From a virus: a DNA stretch of 40,854 nt. Made by a program: the position numbers and the translations under genes. The stretch covers positions 1 through 40,854 of the IMG/VR virus record IMGVR_UViG_3300042868_005714, one strand, 5' to 3'. Below, piece by piece: positions 1 through 18,632 of this stretch (positions are counted from its first letter, which is position 1; every line of letters starts with the position of its first letter). The notes under the pieces are model-generated. The model saw nothing but the letters and a program-made list of their open reading frames with translations. It did not search any database and was not told where the DNA came from.

Positions 1-99
1 CACACTCAGGGCGAACCTGCAAGAATATTTGTACATGCCATGACACAGGAAGAAGCTGAAAGACAGGTTGATGAGTGGTTTGGTGAAGGTGTAGAATGA
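1..99 (+). CDS. C-terminal end of a hypothetical protein (cut by window edge)
   Basis: An open frame runs from the window start to the TGA at 97-99 and gives the last 32 residues of a protein. They are acidic and probably helical, with the segment EEAERQVDEWFGEG. The stop overlaps the ATG of the next gene (ATGA), the same coupling seen throughout this block, which supports it as a real gene end. The family cannot be named from so short a piece. Confidence 0.6.
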   Translation, partial: HTQGEPARIFVHAMTQEEAERQVDEWFGEGVE

Positions 100-515
100 T
101 TAAGCCGTTGCGTGACGATCTAATGGTGCAACAACAAGTAGACGACGATTGGCAACATTTTGTCGGTGTGATCATGTTGAACCAAACTGGTCGCAAAGCA
201 GTAAAGACCACACTACCCGAATTTCTATATTGGTTTCCTACAGCATTAGCATTATTACACGCAGAAGAAGAGTTTGTCAAAAGCATAATCCAACCCTTAG
301 GAATGGTTAATGTTCGCTATACTCGGTTGATTAGAATGAGTCAAGACTACTTGACTTGGGACGGAAATGATGCTACAATGTTATATGGCATTGGCAAGTA
401 TGGTTCAGATAGTTATGAGATCTTTTTCAAACATAATTACACAGTAGAGCCCACTGACAAAGAATTAATCCGTTATCTAGATGAAGAGGTAAGAGATGTT
501 GTTGAAACTGTTTGA
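96..515 (+). CDS. MBD4-like HhH-GPD DNA glycosylase
   Basis: This 139-aa protein resembles the glycosylase domain of MBD4 along most of its length. The matching landmarks are FVGVIMLNQTGRKA (22-35), KPLG-like IIQPLG (64-69), the helix-hairpin-helix LYGIGKYGSDSYEIF (96-110) and EPTDKEL (118-124), where D121 is the expected catalytic aspartate. The position of the Schiff-base lysine of endonuclease III is a tyrosine, as in MBD4, so a monofunctional enzyme removing T or U (or a damaged pyrimidine) from DNA is predicted. It is shorter than Nth and lacks an iron-sulfur cluster loop. The start has GAAGG 6 nt upstream and overlaps the previous stop. The match is from memory of the family; the exact substrate is inference. 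Confidence 0.75.
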   Translation: MIKPLRDDLMVQQQVDDDWQHFVGVIMLNQTGRKAVKTTLPEFLYWFPTALALLHAEEEFVKSIIQPLGMVNVRYTRLIRMSQDYLTWDGNDATMLYGIGKYGSDSYEIFFKHNYTVEPTDKELIRYLDEEVRDVVETV

Positions 516-957
516 AAGATTAGGTCGCAAACGCATCATTTATGATCGCGTTAACAACGAACCTTACCTTGTAAGATATTATCTCTTTTTGAAAGAACGT
601 GAGCGTTTTCCTTTTAATATATTTCTACATAAGTTTCTCAAAGGTGATCCGGATGATGTGCATGATCATCCCTGGCCCTATGCTACACTAATTTTGAAGG
701 GCGGATATTATGAATGGGTTCCGGAATTTGATCGAGACGGTAAAATGCTTGGCGAGATGCAGAAGTGGCGAGGTCCAGGTCATTTTCGTATTTGTAGTTC
801 TAATAGTTATCACCGGATTGAATTAAAACCAGGCGTCACTGCCTGGACTCTGTTTATGCCTGGTCCTCATCGCCGCGAATGGGGATTTTTAGTCAACAAT
901 CAGTGGATACAACATGAGCAGTACCTCAAGGAGAGATATGAACAAACTCAAAATTAA
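496..957 (+). CDS. Cupin-fold protein
   Basis: This 153-aa protein has a cupin metal-binding pattern: HDHPW at 56-60 (H56, H58), GGYYE at 69-73 (E73 as third ligand) and H106 in SYHRIEL. The surrounding beta-rich sequence (TLILKGG, HFRICSSNSYHRI) fits a small single-domain cupin. Such proteins occur in many marine phages; the reaction is unknown, and a metal-dependent oxygenase or a sugar-binding role are both possible. Its start overlaps the glycosylase by 20 nt and has a GAAGAGGT Shine-Dalgarno. The next gene overlaps its end by 20 nt, so it is part of one translation-coupled block. Confidence 0.7.
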   Translation: MLLKLFERLGRKRIIYDRVNNEPYLVRYYLFLKERERFPFNIFLHKFLKGDPDDVHDHPWPYATLILKGGYYEWVPEFDRDGKMLGEMQKWRGPGHFRICSSNSYHRIELKPGVTAWTLFMPGPHRREWGFLVNNQWIQHEQYLKERYEQTQN

Positions 958-1528
958 TCAGCATGAAGTAACTGGTCTAGTCGGCAAGATCTGTAGAGAA
1001 CTTGCTATAGGAAGTTGGCGACCAGATTATATTGTAGGAATCACTCGCGGTGGGTTGGTTCCTGCTGTTATGATCAGTCAATATTTTAATATCCCATTGC
1101 ATACATTAAATGTAAGTCTGCGTGACGGAGATGTAGGACCCGAAAGTAATCTGTGGATGGCCGAAGATGCACTAGGGCCGAACAGTAGAGAACGGATTGT
1201 TGAAGATTCCGATAACATTGGCGGTATTCTAGAAGCTGCAAGTTCTTTACTAGAAAACGGTGGCACATACAAGAATATTCTTATTGTGGATGATATCAAC
1301 GATCAAGGCACTACACTTAACTGGATCATGAAAGACTGGCCCAGTGGCTGTTTTCCAGATGATCCTAGTTGGGGTGAGGTGTGGAACAATAATGTAAAAT
1401 TTGCAGTATTGGTAGATAATCTTGCCAGCCAATGTGAAGTTAAAATGGATTACGTTGGCATGGAAGTCAACAAGGCAGAAAAAGATATATGGATTGATTT
1501 TCCTTGGGAAGATTGGTGGACTAAATGA
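938..1528 (+). CDS. Phosphoribosyltransferase-domain protein
   Basis: This 196-aa protein carries a type I phosphoribosyltransferase signature. The PRPP-binding motif ILIVDDINDQGTT lies at 114-126, and GITRGGLVPA at 34-43 matches the pyrophosphate-loop region. The family transfers ribose-5-phosphate from PRPP to a purine or pyrimidine base. A long hood segment (residues 60-110) makes it closer to bacterial xanthine/hypoxanthine-type enzymes than to OPRT, but base specificity is not readable. I chose the ATG at 938 because AAGGAG at 928-933 sits 4 nt upstream; an in-frame ATG at 914 lies deeper in the cupin gene without such a site. A salvage role during infection is inference. Confidence 0.8.
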   Translation: MNKLKINQHEVTGLVGKICRELAIGSWRPDYIVGITRGGLVPAVMISQYFNIPLHTLNVSLRDGDVGPESNLWMAEDALGPNSRERIVEDSDNIGGILEAASSLLENGGTYKNILIVDDINDQGTTLNWIMKDWPSGCFPDDPSWGEVWNNNVKFAVLVDNLASQCEVKMDYVGMEVNKAEKDIWIDFPWEDWWTK

Positions 1529-1752
1529 TCGATTCTAAGATCAAGGTTCGCTGCACTGATGCAGGCAAAGATTTTGACATGCATGTTCTAGGATACAAGC
1601 CTAAGGTATTTTTAGATGTTGCATTTCAAACTATTAAGTTGCGATTAGTTTATATGGAACGTACTAAGGCATTTGCAGGCAGTCTAGGCGGCCGTGAGTT
1701 TGTTGTACGCGAAGACGAGTTACCTCGAGAACGTGGAGAGTATAAACGATGA
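1525..1752 (+). CDS. Hypothetical protein (75 aa)
   Basis: A small basic, beta-rich protein that I do not recognise. It starts and ends in ATGA overlaps with the phosphoribosyltransferase and HIT genes, which is strong evidence that it is translated. It contains LGYKPKVFLDVAF near the N-terminus and GGREFVVREDELPRERG near the C-terminus. No membrane segment, cysteine cluster or catalytic motif is visible. Confidence 0.65.
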   Translation: MIDSKIKVRCTDAGKDFDMHVLGYKPKVFLDVAFQTIKLRLVYMERTKAFAGSLGGREFVVREDELPRERGEYKR

Positions 1753-2126
1753 ACCTACACTATTCATTAGATGATGCACGTGATGCGGGTGATGCACCTT
1801 GGGACGATGTCATACAAGATGATTTTCATGTTGCTATTTTTAAAGACAAGTATCCTGTAACAGAAGGACACTTGCTGTTTGTGCCTAAATATTCAGCCGT
1901 AGGTGTTATTGAAGATTGTTTTGCGGATGCACTTAGACTTGGACAAGAAAAAGTCAACAGTGGCGAGTGGGACGGATTCAATATTGGAATGAATTGGGGG
2001 GAGGCTGCTGGACAGACCGTGCCTTATCCACATGTTCATTTGATTCCTAGACGCAAAGGTGACATGGAAGACCCCACAGGTGGTGTTCGCCACGTGATTC
2101 CAGAAAAGGGTAATTATCGTAAATGA
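1749..2126 (+). CDS. HIT-family nucleotide hydrolase/transferase-like protein
   Basis: This 125-aa protein has the histidine-triad layout: PVTEGHLLFVPK (36-47), GFNIGMNWGEAAGQTVPY (76-93) and PHVHLIPRRKGD (94-105), followed by GGVRHVIPEKGNY. HIT proteins cleave or transfer nucleotides from phosphoramidates or dinucleoside polyphosphates. The nucleophilic His (H95) and the following His (H97) are present, but the first member of the triad is a tyrosine (Y93). It sits after a phosphoribosyltransferase, which suggests nucleotide metabolism, although a specific substrate cannot be assigned. The ATG at 1749 overlaps the upstream stop. Confidence 0.85.
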   Translation: MNLHYSLDDARDAGDAPWDDVIQDDFHVAIFKDKYPVTEGHLLFVPKYSAVGVIEDCFADALRLGQEKVNSGEWDGFNIGMNWGEAAGQTVPYPHVHLIPRRKGDMEDPTGGVRHVIPEKGNYRK

Positions 2127-2521: not shown

Positions 2522-2707
2522 ATGCAAACATGGACAGTAACAGTGGAAGAAGACGGTATCATAACGTTGCCCCAAGATCTTTTAGATGCCGCAGGATGGC
2601 GAGAAGGCGATTGCCTACATTGGATTGATCAACATGATGGATCTTGGCAATTGGTCAAGGAAGAGTTGACAACATTTATAAAAAGTGGTATAATAAACAA
2701 TGAGTAA
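2522..2707 (+). CDS. SpoVT/AbrB-like domain protein
   Basis: This 61-aa protein matches the AbrB swapped-hairpin pattern: TVTVEEDGIITLPQDLLDAA (residues 5-24) and then GWREGDCLHWID. Members usually bind DNA as dimers, often as transition-state regulators or as antitoxins. No toxin gene adjoins it; the next gene is the QueE-like enzyme, whose ATG overlaps this frame by 8 nt. A role as a phage transcription regulator is possible but not shown. Confidence 0.65.
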   Translation: MQTWTVTVEEDGIITLPQDLLDAAGWREGDCLHWIDQHDGSWQLVKEELTTFIKSGIINNE

Positions 2708-3563
2708 AATTAAAATAGCAGAACTGTTTTACAGTATACAAGGCGAAGGCCGATATATGGGTGTTCCTAGTGTATTCTTACGCACTTTTGGATGTAATTT
2801 TAAATGTGCTGGCTTTGGAATGCCGCGTGGCGAAGTAAGTCACGAAGCAACAGATATTGCGGCCACGCATAAAATGATCGAATCATTTCAAACGTATGAG
2901 GAACTTCCGTTAGTCAGCACAGGCTGTGACAGCTATGCATCATGGATGCCAGAATTTAAAGATCTTTCACCACTGCTTACATCAGATGCAATAGCAGAAC
3001 GTATCATGGAAATTTTACCTTACAAGCGTTGGGAAGATGAACATCTTGTGATCACAGGTGGTGAACCGTTGTTGGGATGGCAACGTGCTTATCCGGATCT
3101 TTTGAATCATCTGAGTATGACGGGCCTTAAAGAAATTACTTTTGAAACCAACGGTACTCAAAAGCTAACTCCGGAGTTTAAAAAATATCTACAAGAATGG
3201 TCACAGAATCCTCCTTTTGCTAGTAGAGAAGTTACATTTTCAGTCAGTGCCAAACTCAGTTGTTCAGGAGAACAGCCCAGTGAAGCCATACGTCCAGATA
3301 TAGTCTGTGAATATCAAGAAGCTGGTCATGTATATCTCAAATTAGTAGTGGCCACTGAAGATGATGCAGAAGAAGCTCTAGAAGCTGTGGATATCTATCG
3401 TGCAGAAGGTTTCACTGGTAATGTTTATCTCATGCCTGTGGGCGGGGTTGAGTCAGTATACACACTAAATAACCGCAGAGTAGCAGAACTGGCAATGAAA
3501 CATGGACTGAGATATTCAGACAGATTGCAGGTGCCACTGTTTAAGAATGAATGGGGTACATAA
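2700..3563 (+). CDS. queE: QueE-like 7-carboxy-7-deazaguanine synthase (radical SAM)
   Basis: The N-terminus AELFYSIQGEGRYMGVPSVF (7-26) and the downstream motifs ITGGEPLLGW, FETNGTQ and VSAKLSCSGE are typical of QueE, which converts 6-carboxytetrahydropterin to 7-carboxy-7-deazaguanine, the ring-contraction step toward preQ0. The cluster cysteines are split: C32 and C36 form CX3C, but the third, C76 in the equivalent of CDTxYAW (here CDSYASW), lies 39 residues further on instead of 2. At 287 aa it is longer than most bacterial QueE (about 210-250). No QueC, QueD, FolE or transglycosylase is in the window. In phages this pathway feeds 7-deazaguanine DNA modification or host tRNA pools; which applies here is unknown. 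Confidence 0.85.
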   Translation: MSKIKIAELFYSIQGEGRYMGVPSVFLRTFGCNFKCAGFGMPRGEVSHEATDIAATHKMIESFQTYEELPLVSTGCDSYASWMPEFKDLSPLLTSDAIAERIMEILPYKRWEDEHLVITGGEPLLGWQRAYPDLLNHLSMTGLKEITFETNGTQKLTPEFKKYLQEWSQNPPFASREVTFSVSAKLSCSGEQPSEAIRPDIVCEYQEAGHVYLKLVVATEDDAEEALEAVDIYRAEGFTGNVYLMPVGGVESVYTLNNRRVAELAMKHGLRYSDRLQVPLFKNEWGT

Positions 3564-4000
3564 TGAAAATAATTAAAAAACTATTTGGTCTAGATAAACT
3601 AGAAGCTTCTATCCAAAAAGCTGAACTGGATTTGGCAGAAGCCAACAACAGGTTGGCTGCGGCTGAAGCTGCATCTAAAACTGCTGAACAAGCAGAAGAA
3701 ACTGCCAAGCAGACACCAAAAGAACGTGCTACTAGACGCAAAGAAGCATGGGTTGGTGTAATAAACACTCATGTTAACAAAGATAATATACGAAATGGCT
3801 TTTTTGAGCTTGACTGGAATGACCAATTTGTGCTACAATTAAAGCAAGAGGGATACGGTGAAGATGGTGACAAAGAAGAAGAAATCGTAGATCGTTGGTT
3901 CCGTGAACTTTGTGCAAATGTTGTGGTAGATGGTGATTTTGGCGGCCCTGTGAACACAGGTGTTATAGACATTAAAACAGTGAAGAAGACAAATCAATGA
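3563..4000 (+). CDS. Hypothetical protein with N-terminal coiled coil
   Basis: This 145-aa protein begins with an alanine- and glutamate-rich helix (about residues 10-60, with LAEANNRLAAAEAASKTAEQ), probably a coiled coil. A compact C-terminal region contains NGFFELDWNDQFV and IVDRWFRELC. The ATG at 3563 overlaps the QueE stop as TAATG. An in-frame ATG 12 nt earlier (3551) lies within queE and has no better ribosome site. Function unknown. Confidence 0.7.
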   Translation: MKIIKKLFGLDKLEASIQKAELDLAEANNRLAAAEAASKTAEQAEETAKQTPKERATRRKEAWVGVINTHVNKDNIRNGFFELDWNDQFVLQLKQEGYGEDGDKEEEIVDRWFRELCANVVVDGDFGGPVNTGVIDIKTVKKTNQ

Positions 4001-4998
4001 CCTATATTTTAGTTGATACAGCAAATACATTCTTTCGTGCTCGTCACGTGATCAACGGTGATGCTGATATCAAACTAGGCATGGCTTTTCATATCACCCT
4101 TAATTCAATCCGCAAAGCATGGCAGCAGTTTAACGGCAGTCATGTCATATTCTGTTTAGAAGGTAGATCTTGGCGCAAAGATTATTATGCACCCTACAAG
4201 CGAAATCGTTCTGATGCTCGTGCTGCTCACACAGAAAAAGAAGCAGAGGAAGATCGCGTGTTTTGGGAAGCCTTTGATACATTCAAAGAGTTTATCACAG
4301 ATAAAACTAACTGCACAGTCATGCAGAATCCACAGCTAGAAGCAGATGATTTAATCGCAGGCTGGATACAGAGCCATCCAAATGACAAACATGTAATCAT
4401 CAGTACTGACACAGATTTTGTACAATTGATCGCCCCTAATGTCACACAGTACAACGGCGTCATGGAACATGTAATCACACATGAAGGTATCTTCGATGAC
4501 AAAGGCAAAAGAATCATTGATAAGAAAACACAAGAACCTAAAGCTATCCCAGACCCGGAATGGCTGCTGTTCGAAAAATGCATGCGTGGTGATACCAGTG
4601 ATAATGTCTTCTCGGCGTATCCGGGTGTGCGTACTAAAGGCACAAGCAAAAAAGTGGGTCTTACAGAAGCGTTCGAAGATCGTGGCAGCAAAGGATATGC
4701 GTGGAACAATCTCATGCTTCAGAGATGGACTGACCATGAAGGCAAAGAACACAGAGTCTTAGAAGATTACGAACGCAATCGTAGATTGATTGACCTTAGT
4801 CATCAGCCAGATGACATCAAAGCCATAATCTCAGAGACCATTGCCGCAGCCACTAGTGCAGACAAAAATGTCAGCCAGGTTGGTCTTAGATTAATGAAGT
4901 TCTGTGGCCTGTATGATCTCAAGAAGATATCTGATCAGGCTGCAAGTTATTCGGAACCATTGAATGCGAGGTACCTAGTTGGAGAACGACATGACTGA
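3997..4998 (+). CDS. T4 RNase H-like 5'-3' exonuclease (FEN family)
   Basis: This 333-aa protein has the metal-binding aspartates of the FEN/5'-3' exonuclease family: D7 in ILVDTANTFFRAR, the basic patch SWRKDYYAPYKRNR (58-71), EADD at 115-118, STDTD at 136-140 and MRGDTSDN at 196-203, followed by the helix-hairpin-helix-like PGVRTKG. In T4 the homologue (rnh) removes RNA primers and trims 5' flaps during lagging-strand synthesis. Its length is close to T4 RNase H (305 aa). The ATG overlaps the previous stop. A replication role is well supported by family knowledge; processivity partners are outside the window. Confidence 0.88.
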   Translation: MTYILVDTANTFFRARHVINGDADIKLGMAFHITLNSIRKAWQQFNGSHVIFCLEGRSWRKDYYAPYKRNRSDARAAHTEKEAEEDRVFWEAFDTFKEFITDKTNCTVMQNPQLEADDLIAGWIQSHPNDKHVIISTDTDFVQLIAPNVTQYNGVMEHVITHEGIFDDKGKRIIDKKTQEPKAIPDPEWLLFEKCMRGDTSDNVFSAYPGVRTKGTSKKVGLTEAFEDRGSKGYAWNNLMLQRWTDHEGKEHRVLEDYERNRRLIDLSHQPDDIKAIISETIAAATSADKNVSQVGLRLMKFCGLYDLKKISDQAASYSEPLNARYLVGERHD

Positions 4999-7935: not shown

Positions 7936-8778
7936 TTATTCGAGAGTAATATGCGCTTTGTAGATCTGTTCAGCAAAAGATCTATGAGCATCTTCATTTA
8001 AGTGCCCGTGAGGCAATATAGTTTCTTTCGTTGAAAAATCGTACAAACAACAATCTGCAGTTATAAACAATTGAGAATTATGTAATTGATTTATTATTTT
8101 GTTAAAAAATAAAGCATTCTCAAGTGACGCTACTCGATATGTGCCGTAAGCATCTGTGCTGGGCCAAAAACATAATTCTTTAGGAATATTTTCCATAGGA
8201 ATCGCAAATAATCGGCCATTTATTTTCTGTTTTATTGATTCAAATGATTTTAAATCTCTATAATAATTCCACAAAAGTCTATCGTCTGTGAAGTATTTTG
8301 TTATATCTTCTGATAGTTCAGTTCGATACGATTCGATATTTGAAAGTAAAAACGGCACGGGTTCTGGATGGGTACTAGAGAAAAACATAGATCGTTGAGT
8401 TCCAGTTGTTCCAATTAGGATTAAATCATGTTCTGTTATTTCACCCGATTCTAATTTTTTTTCTATTTGCCAACATACAAATTCATTGCTATTACCGGGT
8501 CGAGCATAATTTACAAAGTCAATTCCCAGGTAAGAAGCTAGATGGGCCGGCCAAGCATGATTAGATTCTTGTTTTCGAAGTTCTAGCTGTAACGTCATCT
8601 GCTCCGAATCTGTTTTAAGTTTTTCCCACCATTGATATGCATCTAATTTATTTTTTAAATCTACAAAATAAGGATTTAGTTGGTAGTCTAGTATTTCAGT
8701 ACCGGCTGTAAAACTGCATCCAAATGCTAAAATTCTCTTTATATTAAATGTGTTTTCTTTGATAGTGAGTTTTACCAC
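7936..8778 (-). CDS. SGNH/GDSL hydrolase-like protein
   Basis: This 280-aa protein opens its fold with ILAFGCSFTAGTE (16-28), matching block I of SGNH hydrolases with S22 as the nucleophile. ARPGNSNEF gives the block II glycine/asparagine region, and GHLNEDAH near residue 259 matches the catalytic-His block. Block III reads IGTTGTQR rather than GxND, and the usual aspartate two or three residues before the His is absent. The family removes or transfers acyl groups, often on sugars, which suits a position at the end of a glycosyltransferase operon. Activity may be altered or lost. It starts with GTG at 8778 (TAAGGT upstream), overlapping the preceding gene. Confidence 0.7.
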   Translation of the reverse strand: MVKLTIKENTFNIKRILAFGCSFTAGTEILDYQLNPYFVDLKNKLDAYQWWEKLKTDSEQMTLQLELRKQESNHAWPAHLASYLGIDFVNYARPGNSNEFVCWQIEKKLESGEITEHDLILIGTTGTQRSMFFSSTHPEPVPFLLSNIESYRTELSEDITKYFTDDRLLWNYYRDLKSFESIKQKINGRLFAIPMENIPKELCFWPSTDAYGTYRVASLENALFFNKIINQLHNSQLFITADCCLYDFSTKETILPHGHLNEDAHRSFAEQIYKAHITLE

Positions 8779-9971
8779 GTGTTTACCTTAAATTGTTTTG
8801 CGTATTCTATAAAATGAGGTTTGGTTTTGAATAAATTTTGATTACGTATCATATCATAGTTTTTTTGCATTTCAAAAAAATCAACGACTCTCTTAGAATC
8901 TACATTCTTAGATTTATCTATAGCATCTTTAATCATATTTAATAATTCATCTGCTCGATGCAATGACGTGTTTCTATACTTCTGTAATTTGCTATATGCC
9001 TCTTCTAAAATATGTAAGGGTGTTATGTCAATCTCATTGAATTGAACTACCGGAATAAAATAAAAACTAAGTTTATTATCTGATAGTTCTTGCATACTAT
9101 CAATAAGTTGATCTAAGTTATCAACATTTAAATTTTGCACAGTTGTAGCTATTCCAGGCAGTATATTCTTATTCTGTTTCGAATAATCAATTACCAGTTT
9201 TATATTTTTATATAACTTAGACCAATTTCCGGGCCACCTTATATACTCATAAGTATCACCGTGGCCGTCTATACTAATGCTTAGATCTATGGTTTTAAAT
9301 TTTTCCCATACAGCTAATTTACGTTCAGCATCTATTTGTAGGTTCGTGTTGTAATGCAGGATTAAATTTTTTGATCTACCGTTTGCGATAAGCAGTTCAA
9401 CTATCTCATCGTGGAATTCGGACACCAACGGCTCACCTCCTAACATATATATTTCTGTTAAGTTGATAGATTTGTTAATTGTGTCGAGTATTTTGTCTTT
9501 GGTAGATCTATCAAATTCTATGATTTCCTGATGGTTCTGTGATTTATTAATAATATTCCATTGTTTAGCAACTAACGAACTACTAAAAGGGCTACACATT
9601 CGACAGGCAAGATTACATTTATTTCCTAATGTGATATCAAGATACTGTATATTTTTAAATTCAATATGACTTTTGAATTCGATCGTCTTGTTATTTTTTA
9701 TTCCATAGGATTGATTCTCATTTGCCACGTGTCTAAAACTAGGATTTCCAATAGCCTCCATGTTCCAGCATCGATCGCAGTTACTGGGTGTTTGTCCATT
9801 TAAAAAACTCTGTCTTAATTCTACAATTTTTGTATTGTTAATAAATTCTTCAGGAGTTAAATCCTTGGCATATAATTCGAATCCGTTGGTTCCACTGCTA
9901 CAACAGGCTCTAAATTGCCCGCTTGCATCTATGCTTATGCTATTAAAAGGCAAGACACATAAGTTATTCAT
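8772..9971 (-). CDS. N-terminal twitch-type radical SAM protein
   Basis: This 399-aa protein has an auxiliary-cluster-like cysteine set first (C5, C23-C24, and C65xxC68W), then the radical SAM motif C119NLAC123RMC126 and MLGGEPL. N-terminal twitch-domain radical SAM proteins are a recognised but functionally undefined family. The reaction would be radical chemistry on an unidentified peptide, protein or sugar. I chose the ATG at 9971 because TAAGGA precedes it; a longer frame to 10019 lies within the preceding gene. It overlaps that gene by 8 nt. Confidence 0.8.
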   Translation of the reverse strand: MNNLCVLPFNSISIDASGQFRACCSSGTNGFELYAKDLTPEEFINNTKIVELRQSFLNGQTPSNCDRCWNMEAIGNPSFRHVANENQSYGIKNNKTIEFKSHIEFKNIQYLDITLGNKCNLACRMCSPFSSSLVAKQWNIINKSQNHQEIIEFDRSTKDKILDTINKSINLTEIYMLGGEPLVSEFHDEIVELLIANGRSKNLILHYNTNLQIDAERKLAVWEKFKTIDLSISIDGHGDTYEYIRWPGNWSKLYKNIKLVIDYSKQNKNILPGIATTVQNLNVDNLDQLIDSMQELSDNKLSFYFIPVVQFNEIDITPLHILEEAYSKLQKYRNTSLHRADELLNMIKDAIDKSKNVDSKRVVDFFEMQKNYDMIRNQNLFKTKPHFIEYAKQFKVNTW

Positions 9972-11190
9972 TGTTTTCCTTAACAATGTATGAATCTTTT
10001 TTGTTTCCAAGTTCTCCAAAATCGAGACCGTTAAATTCTACACCACAGCATTGTCCGCATTTCGCCGGACGCATCGAAGTATTACCATTTTCATTGTCCC
10101 ATGTATCCGGAATCCATTTTTGAAAAATATCTAATTGCAGTATGTCATAGATATCGTTAGTATGCATATTAAGTCTGTGCATACCGCCCTGGGCAATGAT
10201 CATACTGATGTAATTTTCATCTCGATCCTTGACCTTGATATCTATCATAGGCTCAGAACCCAGAAAACAACAAGGAGCAACATGACCTCCCGCACTTACA
10301 AATATTTCATTGTGCGGTTGATGCTCTCTAGCACCTTTAACAGCGCGGCACGCTATGTTGAGTGAATCTAGATCAATGGTTTGCCATTTTCCATTTACAA
10401 ATCTTATATCCCCATTCTCGATACCTACCATGTTTTTAAAATCATTCAGAGTGATGCTTTGATATTTACTCTGCTTGAAGTATGCTGAATCCTCAAAGTT
10501 GTGTTTGAATTTATCTTCGTTGGGTTGTTTTAAATCATACAAGTAGTTGCCTTTCCAATAAACAGGATACGACCCGACTCCGTTATTATATCTTGCCCAG
10601 CGGGTAGTTCTTTTAACATTGAAATTTTTAAAGCCCATAGTTTTAGCTAATTCTCTAGCTTCGTCGACTTGGTGTTCATTGTGTTCGAAAACAATATAGT
10701 CCCAATGGGCGACGCCGCCAGCATTAATAAATGCCTGAGCGTTTTCTATAATCTTTTTCCAATTGGTATTTCGACGATACAGATGATTTGTGTCTTCGAG
10801 TCCATCTAGACTAAACGTACAGTAATTACCTAGATTTTGATCTTCACGCATCACAGCCCCTAAACGTGCCCACCATGCTGGATTTCTAAGACTACCGTTG
10901 GTATTACATGCAAGCCCTATGCCTGGATTAGTTTCTCTACAGTATTCATATATGTCTACGAATTCTCTACAGGCACAAGGATCACCAAAATTCCCGCAGG
11001 CAAGTATCTTTTGTAATTCCAATAAAAATTTTACAGACCATGCTTTTTTAAAACTTTCTAAAGTCCATTCCTTGTTTTCTAATGTGCTTATCTCAAAACC
11101 TTTTGAATCATATCTCGGACACATAGAACATCCACTATTACATTTATCTGTTGGCTCCCAATGAACCTGTGTTATTACATCATTCCACAT
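9964..11190 (-). CDS. Radical SAM protein with SPASM-like C-terminus
   Basis: A 408-aa protein with the cluster motif C17NSGC21SMC24 near the N-terminus. After the barrel come cysteine groups typical of SPASM auxiliary clusters: NIACRAV, then GGHVAPCCFLG, then CGQCC near the C-terminus. This order (core first, auxiliary cysteines last) is the reverse of its four radical SAM neighbours. SPASM enzymes mostly modify peptides, for example in RiPP maturation, though some act on sugars. No precursor peptide gene is visible nearby. AGGA lies upstream of the ATG, and the next downstream gene overlaps by 8 nt. Confidence 0.8.
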   Translation of the reverse strand: MWNDVITQVHWEPTDKCNSGCSMCPRYDSKGFEISTLENKEWTLESFKKAWSVKFLLELQKILACGNFGDPCACREFVDIYEYCRETNPGIGLACNTNGSLRNPAWWARLGAVMREDQNLGNYCTFSLDGLEDTNHLYRRNTNWKKIIENAQAFINAGGVAHWDYIVFEHNEHQVDEARELAKTMGFKNFNVKRTTRWARYNNGVGSYPVYWKGNYLYDLKQPNEDKFKHNFEDSAYFKQSKYQSITLNDFKNMVGIENGDIRFVNGKWQTIDLDSLNIACRAVKGAREHQPHNEIFVSAGGHVAPCCFLGSEPMIDIKVKDRDENYISMIIAQGGMHRLNMHTNDIYDILQLDIFQKWIPDTWDNENGNTSMRPAKCGQCCGVEFNGLDFGELGNKKDSYIVKENNE

Positions 11191-11198
11191 ATTATATC

Positions 11199-12410
11199 CT
11201 ATAAGTATTTTTTAATTTCGTTGAAGTATTCAGGAAAGATTTCTTTGAAAGATTCTTTTCTTATTTTATCTCGCATCTCGAGTTCTAACCAAAAATTAAT
11301 CCATTCCAATTCAACAGATTCTGTGTTGGATAAATGTTGTATAACCATGTTTCTGTCATTGTTCCACTGTTGTGGTAGATATTTAGATTCATATAAATTA
11401 AGTTTATTGATTACTGTTTCTTTTAGTTCACGAGGCAAAACTTTGATACCATGATGATCGTGAACCATGTTTACGTATATACCTATACCTTTGCTGGCAT
11501 AATGCTCGAAAGTTTCAAAAAAATCATATACATTAAATGCTGAAACAGAAATACAAGCAGATAACAACCATTCAGTATTGCTGTTATTTTTTGCAGAAAT
11601 AAACTTATCAATATTTTCTTCTACTTCTTCCCAAACAGCCGGATGACGACAATATTCAAATTTCTTACCAACGCCGTCACTGCTAATTTGTATATCTACA
11701 ATTTTAAATTCTTCTAGCAACGACATATATTTTTCTGGATAGATAGTGCCATTGGTATTATAATGAATGTGTTGTTTTTTACTCCAACCGTTTTTCACAC
11801 ACTTTTCAACAATGCTCCAGTGTTTTTCAATATAAAACGGTTCTCCTCCTGCAAAATCAAACTTGGTCACATTGGGCAAGAGTGTGGTAATATCATCCCA
11901 TAAGAATTTGTTTTTGTAATCAAAACTATCTTTAGAAATTTTCCATTTTGGTTGTTTTAAATATGCTTGTTTATTATTTGGAAAATGTATAGCAGCTTCT
12001 TCAATCATCCAAGGAGTAGAATGCGTTGGTCCACATATCCTACATTTTATATTACACAAATTTCCCATACTTAGGTCTACCACTATCGGTAACATGTCAT
12101 TGCCGGTAATAGAGTTGGCATATATTTTATTATCTCTAACACGTTTACTTTCTTTTCCGGCATCCTCTTCTTGCCAACAAGCCTTGCAATCGAATATTTT
12201 AATTCCGATATCAAGACTATTAATCATTTGTTGACGATCTTTGCCATTCCAAAACTCTAAAATACTAGCAGTGTTAATCGTAGTCTTGCCTGAGTCGGTC
12301 ACTAGCTCTCGAGTGCTCATACAGCATGGCTTAACTATGCCTTTGGGATGAATGCTTAGATTCATATACGGATTGACACAATAAGTAGATTTATTTTTCA
12401 TAATTTTCAT
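11199..12410 (-). CDS. N-terminal twitch-type radical SAM protein
   Basis: Numbered from the ATG at 12410, the 403-aa protein has an N-terminal cysteine set (C11, C29-C30, C75xxC78W) followed by C119NIKC123RIC126 and DFAGGEPF. The spacing is nearly identical to that of the gene at 8772-9971, so the two are paralogues. An in-frame ATG three codons later (12401) is equally possible; neither has a strong ribosome site, and both lie in the end of the preceding gene. Substrate unknown. Confidence 0.8.
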   Translation of the reverse strand: MKIMKNKSTYCVNPYMNLSIHPKGIVKPCCMSTRELVTDSGKTTINTASILEFWNGKDRQQMINSLDIGIKIFDCKACWQEEDAGKESKRVRDNKIYANSITGNDMLPIVVDLSMGNLCNIKCRICGPTHSTPWMIEEAAIHFPNNKQAYLKQPKWKISKDSFDYKNKFLWDDITTLLPNVTKFDFAGGEPFYIEKHWSIVEKCVKNGWSKKQHIHYNTNGTIYPEKYMSLLEEFKIVDIQISSDGVGKKFEYCRHPAVWEEVEENIDKFISAKNNSNTEWLLSACISVSAFNVYDFFETFEHYASKGIGIYVNMVHDHHGIKVLPRELKETVINKLNLYESKYLPQQWNNDRNMVIQHLSNTESVELEWINFWLELEMRDKIRKESFKEIFPEYFNEIKKYL

Positions 12411-13746
12411 AAATTTGTTTACACAAATTGTAAAATTCTGCGTATTCAGGAAACGTCTTTAACAAATCTGTTCCCAACCGTTTGTCATTTTCAGTAAAGA
12501 AACTGTAAAAATCTCTACGCCCTGCACGAATTTTTTCTGCTGGAATAGTTTTAGCTTTCATGTAATCTGTAACACGTAAGAACTTTTCATATTCTAAATC
12601 ACTTAACCATTCACTATCTTTGATAAACTGTAATGTGTTGTCCATGTCCAGGATGAAATCATCTGTGAGAATATTAATCATCCAGTGAGGAGGTTCTTTT
12701 AAGTACGGAGTATCGAACTTGATAGCATCACGACCAAATTCTTTTCTCCACTCAATAACTTTCTCTAGCAATGATTTAAAGTTAGTAACACACAAAACAT
12801 TAAATGTACACATAAAATTTACGCTAGTTCCTGTAGCAAGCACTGCTCGCATGTTACGTTCCCAATGAACGCAATCTAAACCAGTACGCATGTACTCTGC
12901 TTGCTCGCCCCAGCTATCTATACTGGTGTAAAAACTAAAACTACGAATCTTCTTTTGTTGTAACAATGAACCTACACGCTCGATTAAACTATCAACTTTG
13001 GCAAACGATACACCTAGATTGCTGTTAAGTGTAATTTCTAAATTAGGTGCTGGCTCGTTCTCTAACAAATCAAAGAACTGCATTGCGCCGGGATTCATCA
13101 AAGGCTCGCCACCTGTGATACGAAGTGTATGCAAGTCGTTACGTAGACTAGGCCACCATTTCCAAAATGCTTCAATGTACGGATTTTCGTCCTTGGGACC
13201 GTAATATGAACCATTGCTCATGAACTCTATACCATACTGATTATAGGTTAGATCGTAATTGCCATGCTTCTTGATCTCTTCAGTCCACATTGTACTGGCC
13301 TGTGGGCAACAGTATCCGCATCTGTAATTACATCCATTACCAAAACTAACTTCTAGATAGCGTGGATTGATATGTCGGTCCCAGGGCATTTTAGCAACAT
13401 CGTCGATAATAGGTACAGAATAATCACTAGCACTATGAATCATGCGATCGCTGATATGCTCTCCTGACAAATCTTCAATGTTCCAGCAGTAGTAACACTC
13501 ATCAGGGCGGCCGCCTTCTAACATGGTCTTACGTTGTTGTTTTTTCCAGCTAGTGTTATGTAAGGCACTCGGGTCGACAGCTATTTCATCAAGGCTAATA
13601 TGATGTGGTCTGGGATGATAGCAACTGTGATTATCTCCGGTGTGCAAATACAAGGTTTGATGCAGCCATTTCATGGTGCAGAATCCTGGACCTGTGGTGT
13701 TTAGTTTGTCTCGTATTGATTTAATATATTGTAGTTTATGATCCAT
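12391..13746 (-). CDS. N-terminal twitch-type radical SAM protein, HSCYHPR subgroup (copy 1)
   Basis: A 451-aa protein with N-terminal C23, the motif NHSCYHPR (39-46), C84YYC87W, then the radical SAM motif C139NYRC143GYC146 and RITGGEPLM. It is clearly paralogous to the following gene (13736-15163) over nearly its full length: both share HSCYHPR, PDECxxCW, NPYxxAFWxW and TGGEPLM. AAGGA precedes the ATG. Because the auxiliary cysteines lie before the barrel it belongs with the N-twitch family, but the HSCYHPR version is distinct from the CC version in the neighbouring pair. Confidence 0.8.
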   Translation of the reverse strand: MDHKLQYIKSIRDKLNTTGPGFCTMKWLHQTLYLHTGDNHSCYHPRPHHISLDEIAVDPSALHNTSWKKQQRKTMLEGGRPDECYYCWNIEDLSGEHISDRMIHSASDYSVPIIDDVAKMPWDRHINPRYLEVSFGNGCNYRCGYCCPQASTMWTEEIKKHGNYDLTYNQYGIEFMSNGSYYGPKDENPYIEAFWKWWPSLRNDLHTLRITGGEPLMNPGAMQFFDLLENEPAPNLEITLNSNLGVSFAKVDSLIERVGSLLQQKKIRSFSFYTSIDSWGEQAEYMRTGLDCVHWERNMRAVLATGTSVNFMCTFNVLCVTNFKSLLEKVIEWRKEFGRDAIKFDTPYLKEPPHWMINILTDDFILDMDNTLQFIKDSEWLSDLEYEKFLRVTDYMKAKTIPAEKIRAGRRDFYSFFTENDKRLGTDLLKTFPEYAEFYNLCKQIYENYEK

Positions 13747-15163
13747 GTGCGTCCTTGCAGGTGTTCCAAAAGTCTGTTAGTTCAGGAAATGTATTTACAA
13801 AATTTGTATTTCTACGACGATCTTGTTCTGTAAAAAACATATAAAAATTTTTCATTGCTTTATTTTTATCAAAATTGGATTCTTGTTTAATCCAATCTAT
13901 CAACCGTTGAACCTTGCTAACTTCAAAATCTTTAAATCCTTTGTGATGATTAAACAATCCTTCAGTGTTCGCTAACATATATTCTTTGGCGTTTTCTAAT
14001 TCGATAACCATTTCGGGTAACAATTTTGAATTTAAAAAATCAGGATCTTGTAACTGAGGAATGTCAAACCAAATTAGTTGACGGCCTTCACTGAATTGAT
14101 TTCTTAATTTGTGAATGTTTTTAATATACTCTACAAACCCCGAGTAACTTAAGACATTAAACGTAATAATGAATGTTAAGCTATGTTTATACCCGTTGGC
14201 CAAAAAGTCGGTTATGTTCTGATACAGTAGATCGAAGTCCATACCAGGACGTATATATTCAGCTTGTTTGCCCCACGAGTCTAAACTACAAAACAGCATA
14301 AAGTGGTCAATTGCTGATTTTTCAGTAATCTTCTTCAATGATATCATGAACTTATTCCACTGATTTCCTGGTGGACAGCAATTTGATGTTATAGACAAGT
14401 TTAAGGCAGGATGTGGGTGTTCGTATACATAATCAAACATTTTAAAGGTGTTTTTATCCATTAGAGGTTCACCGCCAGTCATGCGGAATGTTTGTAGCTT
14501 TGAGTATATTACTGGCATCCATTCCCAGAATGCTTTTAAATAAGGGTTGTCGGGGCCGTTATCAATATTAAGCTTCTTTACCCATGTTATGTCGTTGTGC
14601 CAGCGATCTGATAAAATAATAGCACCGTTTTGTTCTATATCTTGCTGCCAGGCTGTGCTTAGGTGAGGACTGCAATAGCTACATTTAAAATTGCAGGCTT
14701 GGTTGAAGTTTACTTCAACATATCGAGGTATTGCATTTCCTTCAAATCCCAATGCCTGAGCTTCCGCAATCAGTCCATCTTCATAGACATCGTTGCTGCG
14801 ATATGCACGATCGCTTAGTTGGTTGCCACTGTCTTCAATTTGCCAACAAAAATTACACTCGTCTGGTCGCTGACCTTCTAACATTAATTTGCGTTGTTCT
14901 TTTTTATGCCTAGTATTATGTAAAGAACTTACATCTATTGCAATTTCTTCTAACGGAATTTTATGGCTGCGGGGATGATAACAACTGTGTGTTTGGCCGG
15001 TTGGAATATGTATGCTTACATTAAACCATTTTGCTAGACAAAAACTAGGACTGACTTCATTTAATTCTTCAAAAACTTTTCCAGCATCGTGGAAATATTT
15101 AGACTGATATCGGCCATTAATTTTAACCAACTCGTTGCCTTTTATGTTTTCATTTAGAGGCAT
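13736..15163 (-). CDS. N-terminal twitch-type radical SAM protein, HSCYHPR subgroup (copy 2)
   Basis: A 475-aa paralogue of the downstream gene. It has C42, THSCYHPRSH (59-68), C103NFC106W, then C157NFKC161SYC164 and MTGGEPLM. The copy has an extra N-terminal stretch of about 18 residues and differs in the loop after the cluster. Tandem placement in the same orientation points to duplication followed by divergence, perhaps to handle related substrates or to form a heteromeric enzyme. CAGGA is present upstream of the ATG, and the gene overlaps the preceding glycosyltransferase-like gene by 14 nt. Confidence 0.8.
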   Translation of the reverse strand: MPLNENIKGNELVKINGRYQSKYFHDAGKVFEELNEVSPSFCLAKWFNVSIHIPTGQTHSCYHPRSHKIPLEEIAIDVSSLHNTRHKKEQRKLMLEGQRPDECNFCWQIEDSGNQLSDRAYRSNDVYEDGLIAEAQALGFEGNAIPRYVEVNFNQACNFKCSYCSPHLSTAWQQDIEQNGAIILSDRWHNDITWVKKLNIDNGPDNPYLKAFWEWMPVIYSKLQTFRMTGGEPLMDKNTFKMFDYVYEHPHPALNLSITSNCCPPGNQWNKFMISLKKITEKSAIDHFMLFCSLDSWGKQAEYIRPGMDFDLLYQNITDFLANGYKHSLTFIITFNVLSYSGFVEYIKNIHKLRNQFSEGRQLIWFDIPQLQDPDFLNSKLLPEMVIELENAKEYMLANTEGLFNHHKGFKDFEVSKVQRLIDWIKQESNFDKNKAMKNFYMFFTEQDRRRNTNFVNTFPELTDFWNTCKDAHGS

Positions 15164-17108
15164 CGAATTTTTCCTGTAGCCAATTGAAGTCGTTGATTCG
15201 TCTTAACTCTTCTAGATTGTTTTTATTTTCTAAACCATATTGGCGGCCGGCTCTTGCTCCTGCTATGGAGTATTCACCAAACCGTGCATCTTGTCCCACA
15301 TTACACCATATGTCTAAACGTTGCTGTGTTTCTTCTTCGAACTGTCTTTCAATGGTGCGACTAGACAATTTACAACATTCCCTAAATGCTGAGCGCCACG
15401 TGGTAAATTCATCAGTGTTAAACCAGTTAGTGTTAGACACCGTATTCATAGTCTTGAACTTTTTAGATATACTGGTTGTCATGTCAGATGTATTAACATC
15501 CATGTTTAGTGTTAAATGCCGGGGTAATAGTTTGACTCCGCCGTTACCATATTCTAGATTATTGATAGGGTTTCTACTACGCCAAACATGAACGCAGTCA
15601 ATATCATAACTCGACATAACTAAATCAAAATTAAAATTATCCTCAACAACAGCATCGCCGTCTACTATCCATATCATATCAGTATCACACAACTCTGCTG
15701 CTTTAATGTGTGCCTGGTGAATTCCTTTAACTCCGTGTACTCGTTTTGCTCTGGGACATTTATCAAGCAATCTAAGATAGTTTTCTTCAGCATTGGTTTC
15801 ATTATAAGATATAAACACCACATCATATAAACGATGCTTGGATACTAGAATATCATGTTCTTTTTTCTCAATTAAAAATCTGTGATTAAACTCTCGTTGA
15901 CTAATAATTTTATCTTTAGAAAATAAGACAACACCGTTAGTGTAAATTTCAGAGTCGTTAAACAAATGTCTAAATGTATGATTTTCCGATCTATCATAAT
16001 CAAAAGTTGGATTATTGGGTTTAAAATACAGATCAAAAATAGTTGTGTCTATTATTTCTATTTCAGGCCAAATGCACCAGAACATGGGCTGCTGGTTAGT
16101 ATTGGTAATTTCTAAATATTCAGCATAATTATTAATGATATAAACAGGATATTCAAATTTACAAACTACTATATCGTGTTCTTTCTTGTCAACAGCGTAT
16201 TGTCTTTCAAATTCTTTTTTGGACAATGGTTTATATTTGCTACAAAGTATCACCCCATTTAGGTATAACTCTTCGCCGTTACACTGATTTTTAAAAACAT
16301 GATTTTCTCTACGATCATAACTGTTGTGATGACTAAAATATAGATTAAAAATCTCTTCGTTTAGAATCTTGATTCCGGGTGACACTACCCAAAACATATC
16401 GTCTGTTATTTGTTGATATTCTTCAAATGTGCTAGGACTATATACATTATACTTTTTTGGGGTCGAAGCTACAATATCTATTTCTTTTTTATCTGCAAAA
16501 AATCTGTGATGGAATTCTCTTTTAGATATTGTAACATTTTTAGGAAATAGACAAATACCATCGTGGTGATCGCCGTTTTTAAAAATATGCACAATATTAC
16601 AATTGTGTTTAGGTACTTTATAATCAAATTTAAAATTTGAATCAATTTCTACGTCGGGCCACACTGCCCAAAACATATCTGTGGTTGATTGTTTAACAGC
16701 GTTTACATATTCATCATATGTTGATATTTCAAAACTATTGTAACCCTTAGGCACACTGGCAACAATGTCTATTTCTTTTTTTTCTGTAAAAAATCTATTA
16801 TTAAATTCTCGTTGAGAAACTAATATTGATTTAGGAAATAAACATACTCCATCATAATGTTCACCGTTTTTAAAAACATGAACATACATATCGTCCCATT
16901 TTGTTGCAGTATATTCTGTTAAATTAAATGAATCGTTAAGAGTTATGTCGTCCCAAATAACCCAAAACATCTTAGTAAAAGATCTTGATTTTATTTCTTC
17001 ATAAGAAGTTATGTTTGACAATCGTTGAGCAATCGGATACTTAAACTTTATTGTTTGCCAGTCCAAGTCATTGCCTGCAGTTTTCGAAACATAAAAAATG
17101 TCATACAT
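15150..17108 (-). CDS. Glycosyltransferase-like protein with four degenerate GT-A-derived repeats
   Basis: The 652-aa protein has two parts. Residues 418-652 form a GT-A-like domain: YDVVFISYNETNAEENY, RVHGVKG (456-462), a DGD motif at 483-485 and GNGGVKLLPR (521-530), paralogous to the whole core of the gene at 17101-18018. Residues 1-417 consist of four tandem ~100-aa units that repeat the front half of the same fold (MFW at 47, 145, 238 and 342 aligning with MIW at 478), each ending near REFxxRFFxEKKE. In the units the DxD site reads WDD, WPD, SPG and WPE, so they are probably non-catalytic. I infer a processive or sugar-binding scaffold attached to one active site. Confidence 0.7.
   Translation of the reverse strand: MYDIFYVSKTAGNDLDWQTIKFKYPIAQRLSNITSYEEIKSRSFTKMFWVIWDDITLNDSFNLTEYTATKWDDMYVHVFKNGEHYDGVCLFPKSILVSQREFNNRFFTEKKEIDIVASVPKGYNSFEISTYDEYVNAVKQSTTDMFWAVWPDVEIDSNFKFDYKVPKHNCNIVHIFKNGDHHDGICLFPKNVTISKREFHHRFFADKKEIDIVASTPKKYNVYSPSTFEEYQQITDDMFWVVSPGIKILNEEIFNLYFSHHNSYDRRENHVFKNQCNGEELYLNGVILCSKYKPLSKKEFERQYAVDKKEHDIVVCKFEYPVYIINNYAEYLEITNTNQQPMFWCIWPEIEIIDTTIFDLYFKPNNPTFDYDRSENHTFRHLFNDSEIYTNGVVLFSKDKIISQREFNHRFLIEKKEHDILVSKHRLYDVVFISYNETNAEENYLRLLDKCPRAKRVHGVKGIHQAHIKAAELCDTDMIWIVDGDAVVEDNFNFDLVMSSYDIDCVHVWRSRNPINNLEYGNGGVKLLPRHLTLNMDVNTSDMTTSISKKFKTMNTVSNTNWFNTDEFTTWRSAFRECCKLSSRTIERQFEEETQQRLDIWCNVGQDARFGEYSIAGARAGRQYGLENKNNLEELRRINDFNWLQEKFDASK
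15858..17108 (-). repeat. Four tandem ~100-aa protein-level repeats
   Basis: Units cover residues 1-112, 113-209, 210-310 and 311-417 of the encoded protein. The shared pattern is DIVAS, then a YxEY turn, MFWxVWP, a short beta segment, HxFKNG, DGIxLFPK or NGVxLFSK, and a closing REFxxRF/KKE. Units 1 and 2 are most alike; 3 and 4 share longer loops (YFxxxN and YDRxENH). The units are homologous to the N-terminal half of the adjoining GT-A domain, which indicates repeated internal duplication of a partial domain. Confidence 0.75.
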
Positions 17109-18018
17109 TGGCAGGAACCGGCATTTTAAAATACGTATCGTTTAAATTCATAGTTTCATTATAGAGATCTAAAGTATACTTACTTTGACGTTCATCTAAC
17201 CAAGGCCAGTCTAATCCTAAATTAATTTTTATTTTGTCTCCTAGATCTTTTATTGCATCTACAAGACCTTCGCCGTTGACTTCTTCATATGGTCTTCCGT
17301 ATTGATTCCATATACCTCTAAGTATTTCAAAATCTCTAACGTCAACATAATTCCAGTTAGTACAATTAGCCATCCAGGTTCCTAATCTTGCACCGTAAAC
17401 TGCAAAGATTCCGTTTTCTTCATGGCTACCAACTGTGGACCACATACGTAATCTATGAATGTTATGCCACCATATTCTCTGTTGTATTTCTTGGGCCGGA
17501 ACCTTAACTCCGTCTAGCAGTGTCATTTTAACACCTTCACGGAACCCTGCTCGCCATGCTTGGAATGGCGATCCTGTAATAATACTTTCGCTAAATGTTA
17601 ATGGAAAATTTCTATATCCATCTTCCCAACAGAAATCTACCTGTCCGCGATCGCTGTCTGAATTCTCATGTGTTTTCATATTCAACACAAAGTCTTTACG
17701 CCAGATCTTTAATCCACCATTACCATATCGAAGACCGTTGATTGCGTTACGGCCGCACCATCCATAGACCTGAATCTTAGGATCACTCATATCAAGATCA
17801 ATGTTAAAAAATCTAGGATCTACAATGTTGTCAGCATCAACAGTGATAAACCAATCTGTTTCGCTGGCTTCGGCGGCGGCTTTATGAGCATGGTCTGAAC
17901 CTTTAACACCGTGAATACGTTTAGCCCAAGGAACTTTGTTGCATAAATCTGCATAGTGTAGATCTGCATTAGGTTCATCGTAACTTAAAAATACAACATC
18001 AAATTCAATAATTTTCAT
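17101..18018 (-). CDS. GT-A-fold glycosyltransferase-like protein (DAD motif)
   Basis: This 305-aa protein starts with FDVVFLSYDEPNADLHYADL, then RIHGVKG (34-40), the metal/nucleotide-sugar motif TVDADN with DAD at 61-63, GNGGLKIWRKDF (99-110) and AWRAGFREGVK. These match the C-terminal domain of the next gene almost segment by segment, so the two arose from one ancestor. GT-A enzymes of this kind transfer sugars from nucleotide donors; donor and acceptor are unknown. It probably supplies the active partner of the repeat-bearing paralogue. Its start overlaps the preceding stop (ATGA). Confidence 0.75.
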   Translation of the reverse strand: MKIIEFDVVFLSYDEPNADLHYADLCNKVPWAKRIHGVKGSDHAHKAAAEASETDWFITVDADNIVDPRFFNIDLDMSDPKIQVYGWCGRNAINGLRYGNGGLKIWRKDFVLNMKTHENSDSDRGQVDFCWEDGYRNFPLTFSESIITGSPFQAWRAGFREGVKMTLLDGVKVPAQEIQQRIWWHNIHRLRMWSTVGSHEENGIFAVYGARLGTWMANCTNWNYVDVRDFEILRGIWNQYGRPYEEVNGEGLVDAIKDLGDKIKINLGLDWPWLDERQSKYTLDLYNETMNLNDTYFKMPVPANV

Positions 18019-18632
18019 TTATATTCTATCACATAGTTTTTAAACAAGCGTCTAGTGTATACACTAAATTTAGGATAGTTGAAACCTGTAATCAACTTAT
18101 GGTTTCCAGTAAGATTGTTAATTGTAACACTTACTGTTTCAAAAAGCAAGTTTGGGTCGTTGTATTCTGTAATAAAAAATTGCATTTCAGTGTCGCCATC
18201 CCATACAATATTTCTTTTCTTTATCCCAGCCCTAGCCTTACATGTTCCCCCAAATTCTGAAGACATTTCTATTTTAAAAGTATTAAATTTTGAATCATAT
18301 TTAATATAGATATCTGGGTTTTTTATTTCAGAATCTTTCTTAGAAATAATTCTATGCAGCACATCGTCTATCTTATAGGTATTTTTTATTTCTGCTACTT
18401 CTAAAGTATTTGAATTTATATCAACTATGCAGTTGTTAATTTTAATTTCTGCATTAATTATAGATTCTGCCAATTCTTTATCTATAGATATTTTGTGTTT
18501 TTGATCTTTAAAGGCATGACTAGGACCTACACTAATTACCGCGCCAGTGTCGGGGTTAAAAACCGCAACAAATTTTACAGGAGGTAATTTGAAATTTGCA
18601 AGCCAATTATCAAAATCAATTATTTCTTCCAT
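18015..18632 (-). CDS. Conserved phage protein of unknown function (205 aa)
   Basis: A soluble, beta-rich protein with VAVFNPDTGAVISVGPSHAF (residues 22-41), IDDVLHRIISKK in the middle and NYPKFSVYTRRLFKNYVIEY at the C-terminus. I recall similar proteins next to glycosyltransferases in marine phage genomes, but no function. It has no membrane segment or cysteine motif. Its place between two pairs of glycosyltransferases suggests a substrate-binding or chaperone role for the same pathway. GAGGAAG precedes the ATG. Confidence 0.65.
   Translation of the reverse strand: MEEIIDFDNWLANFKLPPVKFVAVFNPDTGAVISVGPSHAFKDQKHKISIDKELAESIINAEIKINNCIVDINSNTLEVAEIKNTYKIDDVLHRIISKKDSEIKNPDIYIKYDSKFNTFKIEMSSEFGGTCKARAGIKKRNIVWDGDTEMQFFITEYNDPNLLFETVSVTINNLTGNHKLITGFNYPKFSVYTRRLFKNYVIEYK

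Follow-up and report, generated by a model that had tools for sequence, protein, structure and literature searches.

The window analysed here, a virus record of 40,854 bases from IMG/VR that derives from a freshwater phage, begins with a short gene whose product had been described, from the letters of the DNA alone, as a DNA glycosylase like MBD4, which in humans excises mispaired thymine. This raises the question of whether the protein is indeed of the MBD4 type and, if so, which base such an enzyme might remove in a phage. The positions of the gene, of its presumed active-site codons and of its neighbours are compiled in Table 1.

Table 1. Features of the window, in order of position
Feature	Position	Strand	Evidence
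Preceding small gene (cluster c12), 3' end	1-99	+	stop TGA (97-99) overlaps glycosylase ATG (96-98)
MBD4-type HhH-GPD DNA glycosylase, 139 aa	96-515	+	ORF call, Pfam, PDB sequence search, predicted fold
Q12 codon, possible counterpart of MBD4 Q449 (register may shift by one residue)	129-131	+	alignments
Q30 codon, position of MBD4 arginine finger R468	183-185	+	residue table
Y102 codon, aligned with MBD4 Y540 (thymine-reading pocket)	399-401	+	kept in 159/159 readable relatives
D121 codon, counterpart of the catalytic D560 in human MBD4	456-458	+	D in 159/159 readable of 161 relatives
Cysteine-dioxygenase-like gene, start overlaps glycosylase end	496-957	+	phrog_4786, E 6e-38
Phosphoribosyltransferase	914-1528	+	PF00156, E 8.6e-14
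HIT-domain protein	1749-2126	+	PF01230, E 1.1e-10
MazE-like small protein	2522-2707	+	PF04014, E 1.6e-4 (below cut-off); phrog_661, E 4.9e-10
QueE-like radical SAM protein	2700-3563	+	phrog_2076, E 6e-53; PF04055, E 7.1e-7
5'-3' exonuclease / RNase H-like, downstream edge of conserved block	3997-4998	+	PF02739, E 4.1e-19; phrog_107, E 4.5e-44
Radical-SAM-like ORF	8772-10019	-	translation
Radical-SAM-like ORF	11199-12410	-	translation
Radical-SAM-like ORF	12391-13746	-	translation
Radical-SAM-like ORF	13736-15163	-	translation

A viral family of MBD4-type glycosylases

The gene starts with ATG and encodes 139 amino acids. In a Pfam search that admitted E-values up to 1, HhH-GPD was the sole match in the protein and scored above the curated cut-off (30.3 versus 26.2 bits). 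PHROGs and PADLOC gave no match, and the NCBIfam models mutY (19.2 versus 286.5 bits) and nth (16.3 versus 211.7 bits) remained far under their cut-offs. When PDB sequences were searched with phmmer, glycosylase domains of MBD4 took the first 15 places (E 1.5e-17 to 8.8e-16), followed by MutY at E 0.24. A profile built from 29 viral relatives likewise placed MBD4 first (1.2e-31), ahead of endonuclease III (1.5e-13) and MIG (2e-12). With an AlphaFold2 model of the protein (pLDDT 88.4, built with 25 sequences), Foldseek returned 16 matches under 1e-3, all of them MBD4. VIA-align superimposed the model on MBD4 over 132-137 residues with Z 18.2-19.1, rmsd 1.8-2.1 and about 30% identity; the corresponding values were Z 13.9 and rmsd 5.6 for endonuclease III, and Z 13.7 and rmsd 5.7 for the archaeal MIG (1kea). 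The closest solved sequences and folds are those of MBD4, clearly before endonuclease III, MutY and MIG, and the ORF is real and MBD4-like. The MBD4-type identity put forward in the preliminary description thus held in PDB sequence matches, in the profile comparison across HhH-GPD subfamilies and in the predicted fold. The protein had further been termed a compact phage version; the length is as stated but says little, since the MBD4 domain is of similar size (PDB chains of 138-192 aa).

With the glycosylase domain of human and mouse MBD4 the phage protein shares, apart from its size, the GIGKYGxDSY hairpin and the equivalents of Asn467, Tyr540 and Asp560, and its model extends to the end of the domain, leaving no space for a 4Fe-4S loop. 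It differs from MBD4 in that no methyl-CpG-binding domain was found by the Pfam search and in the residue at the position of R468 (see below). MIG, which is an HhH-GPD thymine glycosylase as well and provides a precedent for a T:G glycosylase encoded beside a cytosine methylase, carries a 4Fe-4S cluster. Endonuclease III and MutY belong to the same superfamily but scored lower, and the position of the catalytic lysine in endonuclease III (Nth) is occupied by Tyr102 in the phage hairpin, as in monofunctional MBD4. The window sequence also stops short of the C-terminal 4Fe-4S cysteine loop of Nth.

At least 582 stretches in IMG/VR match the family profile. The window protein as query found 403 relatives there, and the 80 loci kept of these include relatives at 80-100% identity; queries with the proteins of S-TIM54, AXL_1, L147 and L145 yielded 50, 13, 10 and 27 relatives, respectively, in sets that overlap and contain near-identical contigs. 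A tblastn search (E 1e-3) of 50,697 phage records gave eight matching records, with three phages represented twice. The presence of relatives at 80-100% identity and of remoter ones in other viral lineages indicates that the gene is conserved and that its ORF did not arise by chance. Together, sequence, predicted fold and residue conservation establish a viral family of MBD4-type glycosylases.

This family is mainly viral. A plasmid search returned two poor matches, and a scan of a cellular genome collection with one motif, which divergent members escape, detected seven loci. The profile, applied at E 1e-18, matched one of 398 Pseudomonadota and one of 42 Actinomarinales genomes; both were the centre genomes that had been picked for carrying the gene, and the others gave 0/397 and 0/41. 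On the basis of these counts and of the seven motif loci, a cellular family that is merely sampled by phages was rejected. One glycosylase copy was observed in a Candidatus Actinomarina MAG (L156, 6001-6375), where the neighbours are chromosome-like (CbiM, EamA, MgtE).

Conservation of active-site residues

For the comparison of residues, 257 loci were used in which an ORF matches the profile with E no higher than 1e-15. These comprise 161 distinct ORFs, which were aligned to the human MBD4 segment from the PDB search output; two are cut by contig ends, hence 159 were readable at the positions of Y540 and D560. L145-type loci were left out of this comparison. A regular expression for the conserved residues, which required fixed spacings, matched 0 of 26 of them.

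In MBD4, according to PMC12073362, the thymine edge is read by V448, Q449 and Y540, water is activated by D560, and the orphaned guanine is contacted by R468. The hairpin and the catalytic aspartate D121, both claimed at the outset, were recovered: the window protein contains GIGKYGSDSY, and D121 aligns with human D560. The aspartate and Tyr102 were invariant among the readable relatives (Table 1), and the N467 equivalent was kept in 161/161. Glutamine was found at position 449 or 450 in all 161 relatives. Its register depends on the alignment, with Q12 placed at Q449 by phmmer and at 450 by the gapless alignment, and the acting glutamine in the window branch is ambiguous by one residue. In the T4-like branch the gapless alignment has Val-Gln where MBD4 has Gln-Glu (139/145).

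The arginine finger, by contrast with MBD4, was kept in none of the 161 relatives, which have glutamine (128), leucine (28), cysteine (4) or methionine (1) at the R468 position. E. coli Nth also has glutamine there. With the pocket tyrosine and the catalytic aspartate kept and R468 gone, the excision machinery looks intact, and the contact to the opposite base has changed. Judged from the alignments, loss of the arginine finger may relax opposite-base specificity.

Gene neighbourhood and optional occurrence in the window's lineage

The start and stop overlaps of the glycosylase gene with both neighbours (Table 1) resemble those of a translationally coupled operon. A QueE-like gene about 2 kb away had been pointed out in the preliminary description and was confirmed at a distance of 2.2 kb. 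The first 7,187 bases of the window are 99.9% identical to contig L004, and owing to this near-identity L004 shows the genes directly upstream of the window start. FolE (PF01227, E 6.2e-39) and a gene for a DpdA-like protein of TGT fold are located just upstream, and QueE lies inside the window. In L004 and its relatives the gene order is DpdA-like, several small genes, glycosyltransferase-like, FolE, c12, glycosylase, cysteine-dioxygenase-like, phosphoribosyltransferase, HIT, MazE-like, QueE, c1 and RNase H. QueD passed in 12 of the 51 glycosylase-bearing records, and QueC reached E 0.001 in six and the cut-off in two of the 51, most of which are fragments. Elsewhere in the window (8772-15163, minus strand), four ORFs with CxxxCxxC-like motifs read as radical SAM proteins by translation; they are adjoined by ORFs at 17101-20316 whose translations are glycosyltransferase-like.

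The DpdA-like protein of 512 aa had no match in Pfam, PHROGs, NCBIfam or PADLOC, and sequence and profile searches against the PDB gave no TGT. Its model (pLDDT 66.5) found human QTRT1 as first and sole Foldseek match under 1e-3 (E 1.1e-5), and the best 50 rows in VIA-align were all TGT (Z 19.5-20.1). The protein has the conserved motifs GDSGG(Y/F)Q and FDCASP, which resemble TGT motifs. Judging mainly by the model, the product of positions 401-1936 of L004 and of 45 other loci (cluster c21), which has at least 595 relatives in viral contigs, is a candidate for a divergent DpdA subfamily. The DpdA-like frame is broken by one in-frame TAA in G036 (L096) and in G030 (L098) and by two in G029 (L092), which may be broken genes or sequence errors.

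Phage DpdA inserts 7-deazaguanine into DNA (PMC6884629). The block around the glycosylase gene resembles the phage systems described there in its TGT-fold DpdA-like, FolE and QueE genes, and differs in the glycosylase, a word that is absent from PMC6884629. From its gene content and the modelled fold, the cluster of the window's lineage is predicted to be a 7-deazaguanine DNA-modification cluster.

The glycosylase gene is an optional member of this cluster. Where a freshwater glycosylase locus extends 7.5 kb or more upstream, FolE was present in 32/32 and the DpdA-like gene in 31/32 cases, which are close relatives and not independent. In the reverse direction, DpdA loci reaching 8.5 kb or more downstream contained the glycosylase gene in 10 and lacked it in 19 of 29 cases, and DpdA records searched whole contained it in two and lacked it in 14 of 16. 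Several of the 19 loci have an empty site, at which the dioxygenase-like gene follows directly after FolE (L278, L310, L320) or after FolE-c12 (L285, L329). At the level of gene neighbourhood, the proposed link of the glycosylase to modified-base metabolism is supported by its DpdA-like, FolE and QueE neighbours, but it is not an obligatory one.

The same counts bear on the idea that the glycosylase is a partner of the DpdA-like protein and acts on the modified purine itself, for instance by removing wrongly inserted or unmodified purines. Such a partnership would agree with the start and stop overlaps inside the FolE-QueE block and with the DpdA-like gene being present in 29 of the 36 T4-like glycosylase records (29/51 overall). 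Yet 19 of 29 DpdA loci do without the glycosylase, this DpdA occurs in 0/15 glycosylase records of other lineages, and the conserved pocket residues are those that read thymine in MBD4. Action on purines is thus regarded as very improbable.

Genes of the UDG family (PF03167) were found in 0/51 glycosylase-bearing records and in 0/16 DpdA records, of which 14 lack the glycosylase. The glycosylase as a simple substitute for UDG was rejected, as DpdA phages without the glycosylase have no UDG either, though many of the records are fragments. The counts also touch on a broader alternative, in which the protein is a general uracil glycosylase that removes uracil of any origin, be it misincorporated dUTP or deaminated cytosine, with no tie to modified bases. 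The Nth-like glutamine at the finger position would then reflect lost opposite-base specificity. Absence of UDG from the 51 records with glycosylase is in line with such a role; its absence from the DpdA records, mostly without glycosylase, argues against it. A general role of this kind is considered unlikely, also in view of the neighbours in other lineages (see below).

No cytosine C5-methylase (PF00145) was detected in the 36 T4-like glycosylase records, and the single match among all 51 records was in S-TIM54. For the window's lineage, repair of 5mC made by a phage C5-methylase was rejected on this ground. Thymidylate synthase (TS; PF00303) occurred in 1/30 T4-like glycosylase records, and this one has asparagine at the position of Asn177 in E. 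coli ThyA. Asn177 TS was observed in three of eight DpdA records without glycosylase (G493, G494, G496) versus 1/30 T4-like records with it (Fisher p 0.024, computed on fragments and related records).

Other lineages and a possible role in repair of deaminated cytosine

Two features that were absent from the preliminary description are the lost arginine finger and the occurrence of the gene in other lineages beside dCMP-type TS-like genes. In Bradleyvirinae the glycosylase gene is part of a run with genes for nucleotide pyrophosphohydrolase, a TS-like protein, dCMP deaminase and dihydrofolate reductase. The TS-like protein has aspartate at the Asn177 position, as does T4 dCMP hydroxymethylase, and in 10/10 Bradleyvirinae-type loci 1.4-1.6 kb separate the Asp177 motif from that of the glycosylase. 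Exchange of Asn177 for Asp is reported to change the specificity of TS from dUMP to dCMP (PMC8670742), and a dCMP methylase of Xp12 is named in PMC5175136. In the L147-type lineage (L143, L144, L146-L148), which has a gp23-type capsid, an Asp177 TS-like gene was found 2.0 kb from the glycosylase in 3/5 loci, the other two being cut by contig ends. Cyanophage S-TIM54 also encodes such a glycosylase, and other parts of its genome contain a 'ThyA' with Asp177, an annotated ThyX and the C5-methylase. The TS-like gene with Asp177 at positions 7781-8623 of L147 and in its relatives is a candidate for a dCMP-modifying enzyme of a little-known lineage.

Among 50 records, PF00303 was matched in 13. Asp177 was present in nine of the ten with glycosylase (the tenth, G026, has Asn177) and Asn177 in all three without it (9/1 versus 0/3; Fisher p 0.014, with small numbers and relatedness ignored). 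Asp177 is not rare, since T4 gp42 has it as well. TS-like proteins that share 60% identity or more with the AXL1 one occur in 32 phage records, in which some phages are represented twice; the glycosylase was present in seven of these records and absent from 25. Around the gene in two further lineages, the L145 and L149-L153 types, no modification gene of those looked for was detected. The nucleotide-metabolism genes of the Bradleyvirinae run would also suit the general uracil glycosylase introduced above, but a plain dUMP/dUTP reading leaves the dCMP-type TS-like neighbours unexplained.

One of the two lineages with a nearby Asp177 TS-like gene includes AXL1, a relative of Xp12. Of 31 restriction enzymes, five cut AXL1 DNA, and the authors of that study likened the phage to Xp12, in which 5mC takes the place of all cytosine (PMC9206674). 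The 'ENDO3c domain' protein gp65 of AXL1, which outside this phage is reported from Xp12 only (PMC9206674), belongs to the same viral family as the window protein (28.8% identity). It was described as an endonuclease III-type protein with no canonical active-site motifs and with D141 as a weak candidate (PMC9206674); the aspartate that aligns with MBD4 D560 is D144. Among the papers listed, none has a title or abstract start on a phage MBD4-type glycosylase, the nearest being that on gp65 as ENDO3c protein. Cytosine C5 modification is predicted in AXL1-like siphoviruses, L147-type phages and S-TIM54.

On balance, we favour the view that the protein is a monofunctional thymine/uracil glycosylase which repairs deaminated cytosines in modified phage genomes. 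Thymine or uracil, possibly also other 5-substituted uracils, would be flipped out of duplex DNA and read by the conserved Gln/Tyr pocket; Asp121 would then cut the glycosidic bond, leaving an abasic site to be mended by host or phage enzymes. The benefit would consist in undoing cytosine deamination in genomes with modified bases. C5-modified cytosine would deaminate to T or 5-substituted U opposite G, products whose removal by ordinary uracil glycosylases is not expected. In the window's lineage the enzyme might perform the same U/T repair in predicted 7-deazaguanine DNA, as an optional gene.

This repair function is suggested by the lead of MBD4 in sequence and fold, by the retained equivalents of D560, Y540, N467 and Gln 449/450, by the DpdA-like and FolE neighbours in the window's lineage and the Asp177 TS-like neighbours in others, by the Asp177 'ThyA', ThyX and C5-methylase of S-TIM54, and by the restriction digests of AXL1 DNA together with the reported Xp12 relative. 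Several observations count against it: the arginine finger is gone in 161/161; no enzyme for cytosine C5 modification was seen in the window's lineage (PF00145 0/36, PF00303 1/30 and that one with Asn177); the gene is dispensable (absent in 19/29, 14/16 and 25/32); the modification genes looked for are missing around the gene in the L145 and L149-L153 types; and the authors of the AXL1 study deemed gp65 to be without canonical active-site motifs (PMC9206674). Deamination repair is better supported where C5-modified cytosine is predicted than in the window's lineage, for which we infer it.

It is conceivable, though doubtful as yet, that phages with modified genomes acquired, by capture or by evolution of their own, an MBD4-type glycosylase dedicated to maintenance. 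Phages with a C5 group on cytosine would meet T:G-type mispairs upon deamination, as vertebrates with methylated DNA do, and would answer them with the same type of enzyme. The viral branch would have dropped the arginine finger and might recognise the orphaned base in another way; in the window's lineage this base could be a 7-deazaguanine derivative across from the lesion. How a phage copes with deamination of heavily modified bases is a question made testable by one small protein. If the repair function is true, MBD4-type repair, for which the solved structures found were mammalian only, would extend to a large set of phages and to small glycosylases with altered opposite-base contact, and gp65 of AXL1 and the reported Xp12 relative, left as doubtful endonuclease III-like proteins in PMC9206674, would receive a concrete function.

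Alternatively, the glycosylase might serve counter-defence or offence by excising bases of host or competitor DNA, or defence-made lesions in phage DNA, instead of spontaneous deamination products. Its accessory nature, with empty sites in near relatives, would be compatible with that, and restriction glycosylases exist (PMC10273834). REase_II, a PADLOC model for a 'Type II nicking endonuclease', matched the proteins of L147 (E 1.2e-9) and L145 (E 6.8e-5), which leaves room for a restriction-like role. We nevertheless consider counter-defence or offence improbable. The window protein had no PADLOC match, an unsystematic view of the gene's neighbours revealed no toxin-like or secretion partner, and the pocket is of the thymine-reading type of MBD4.
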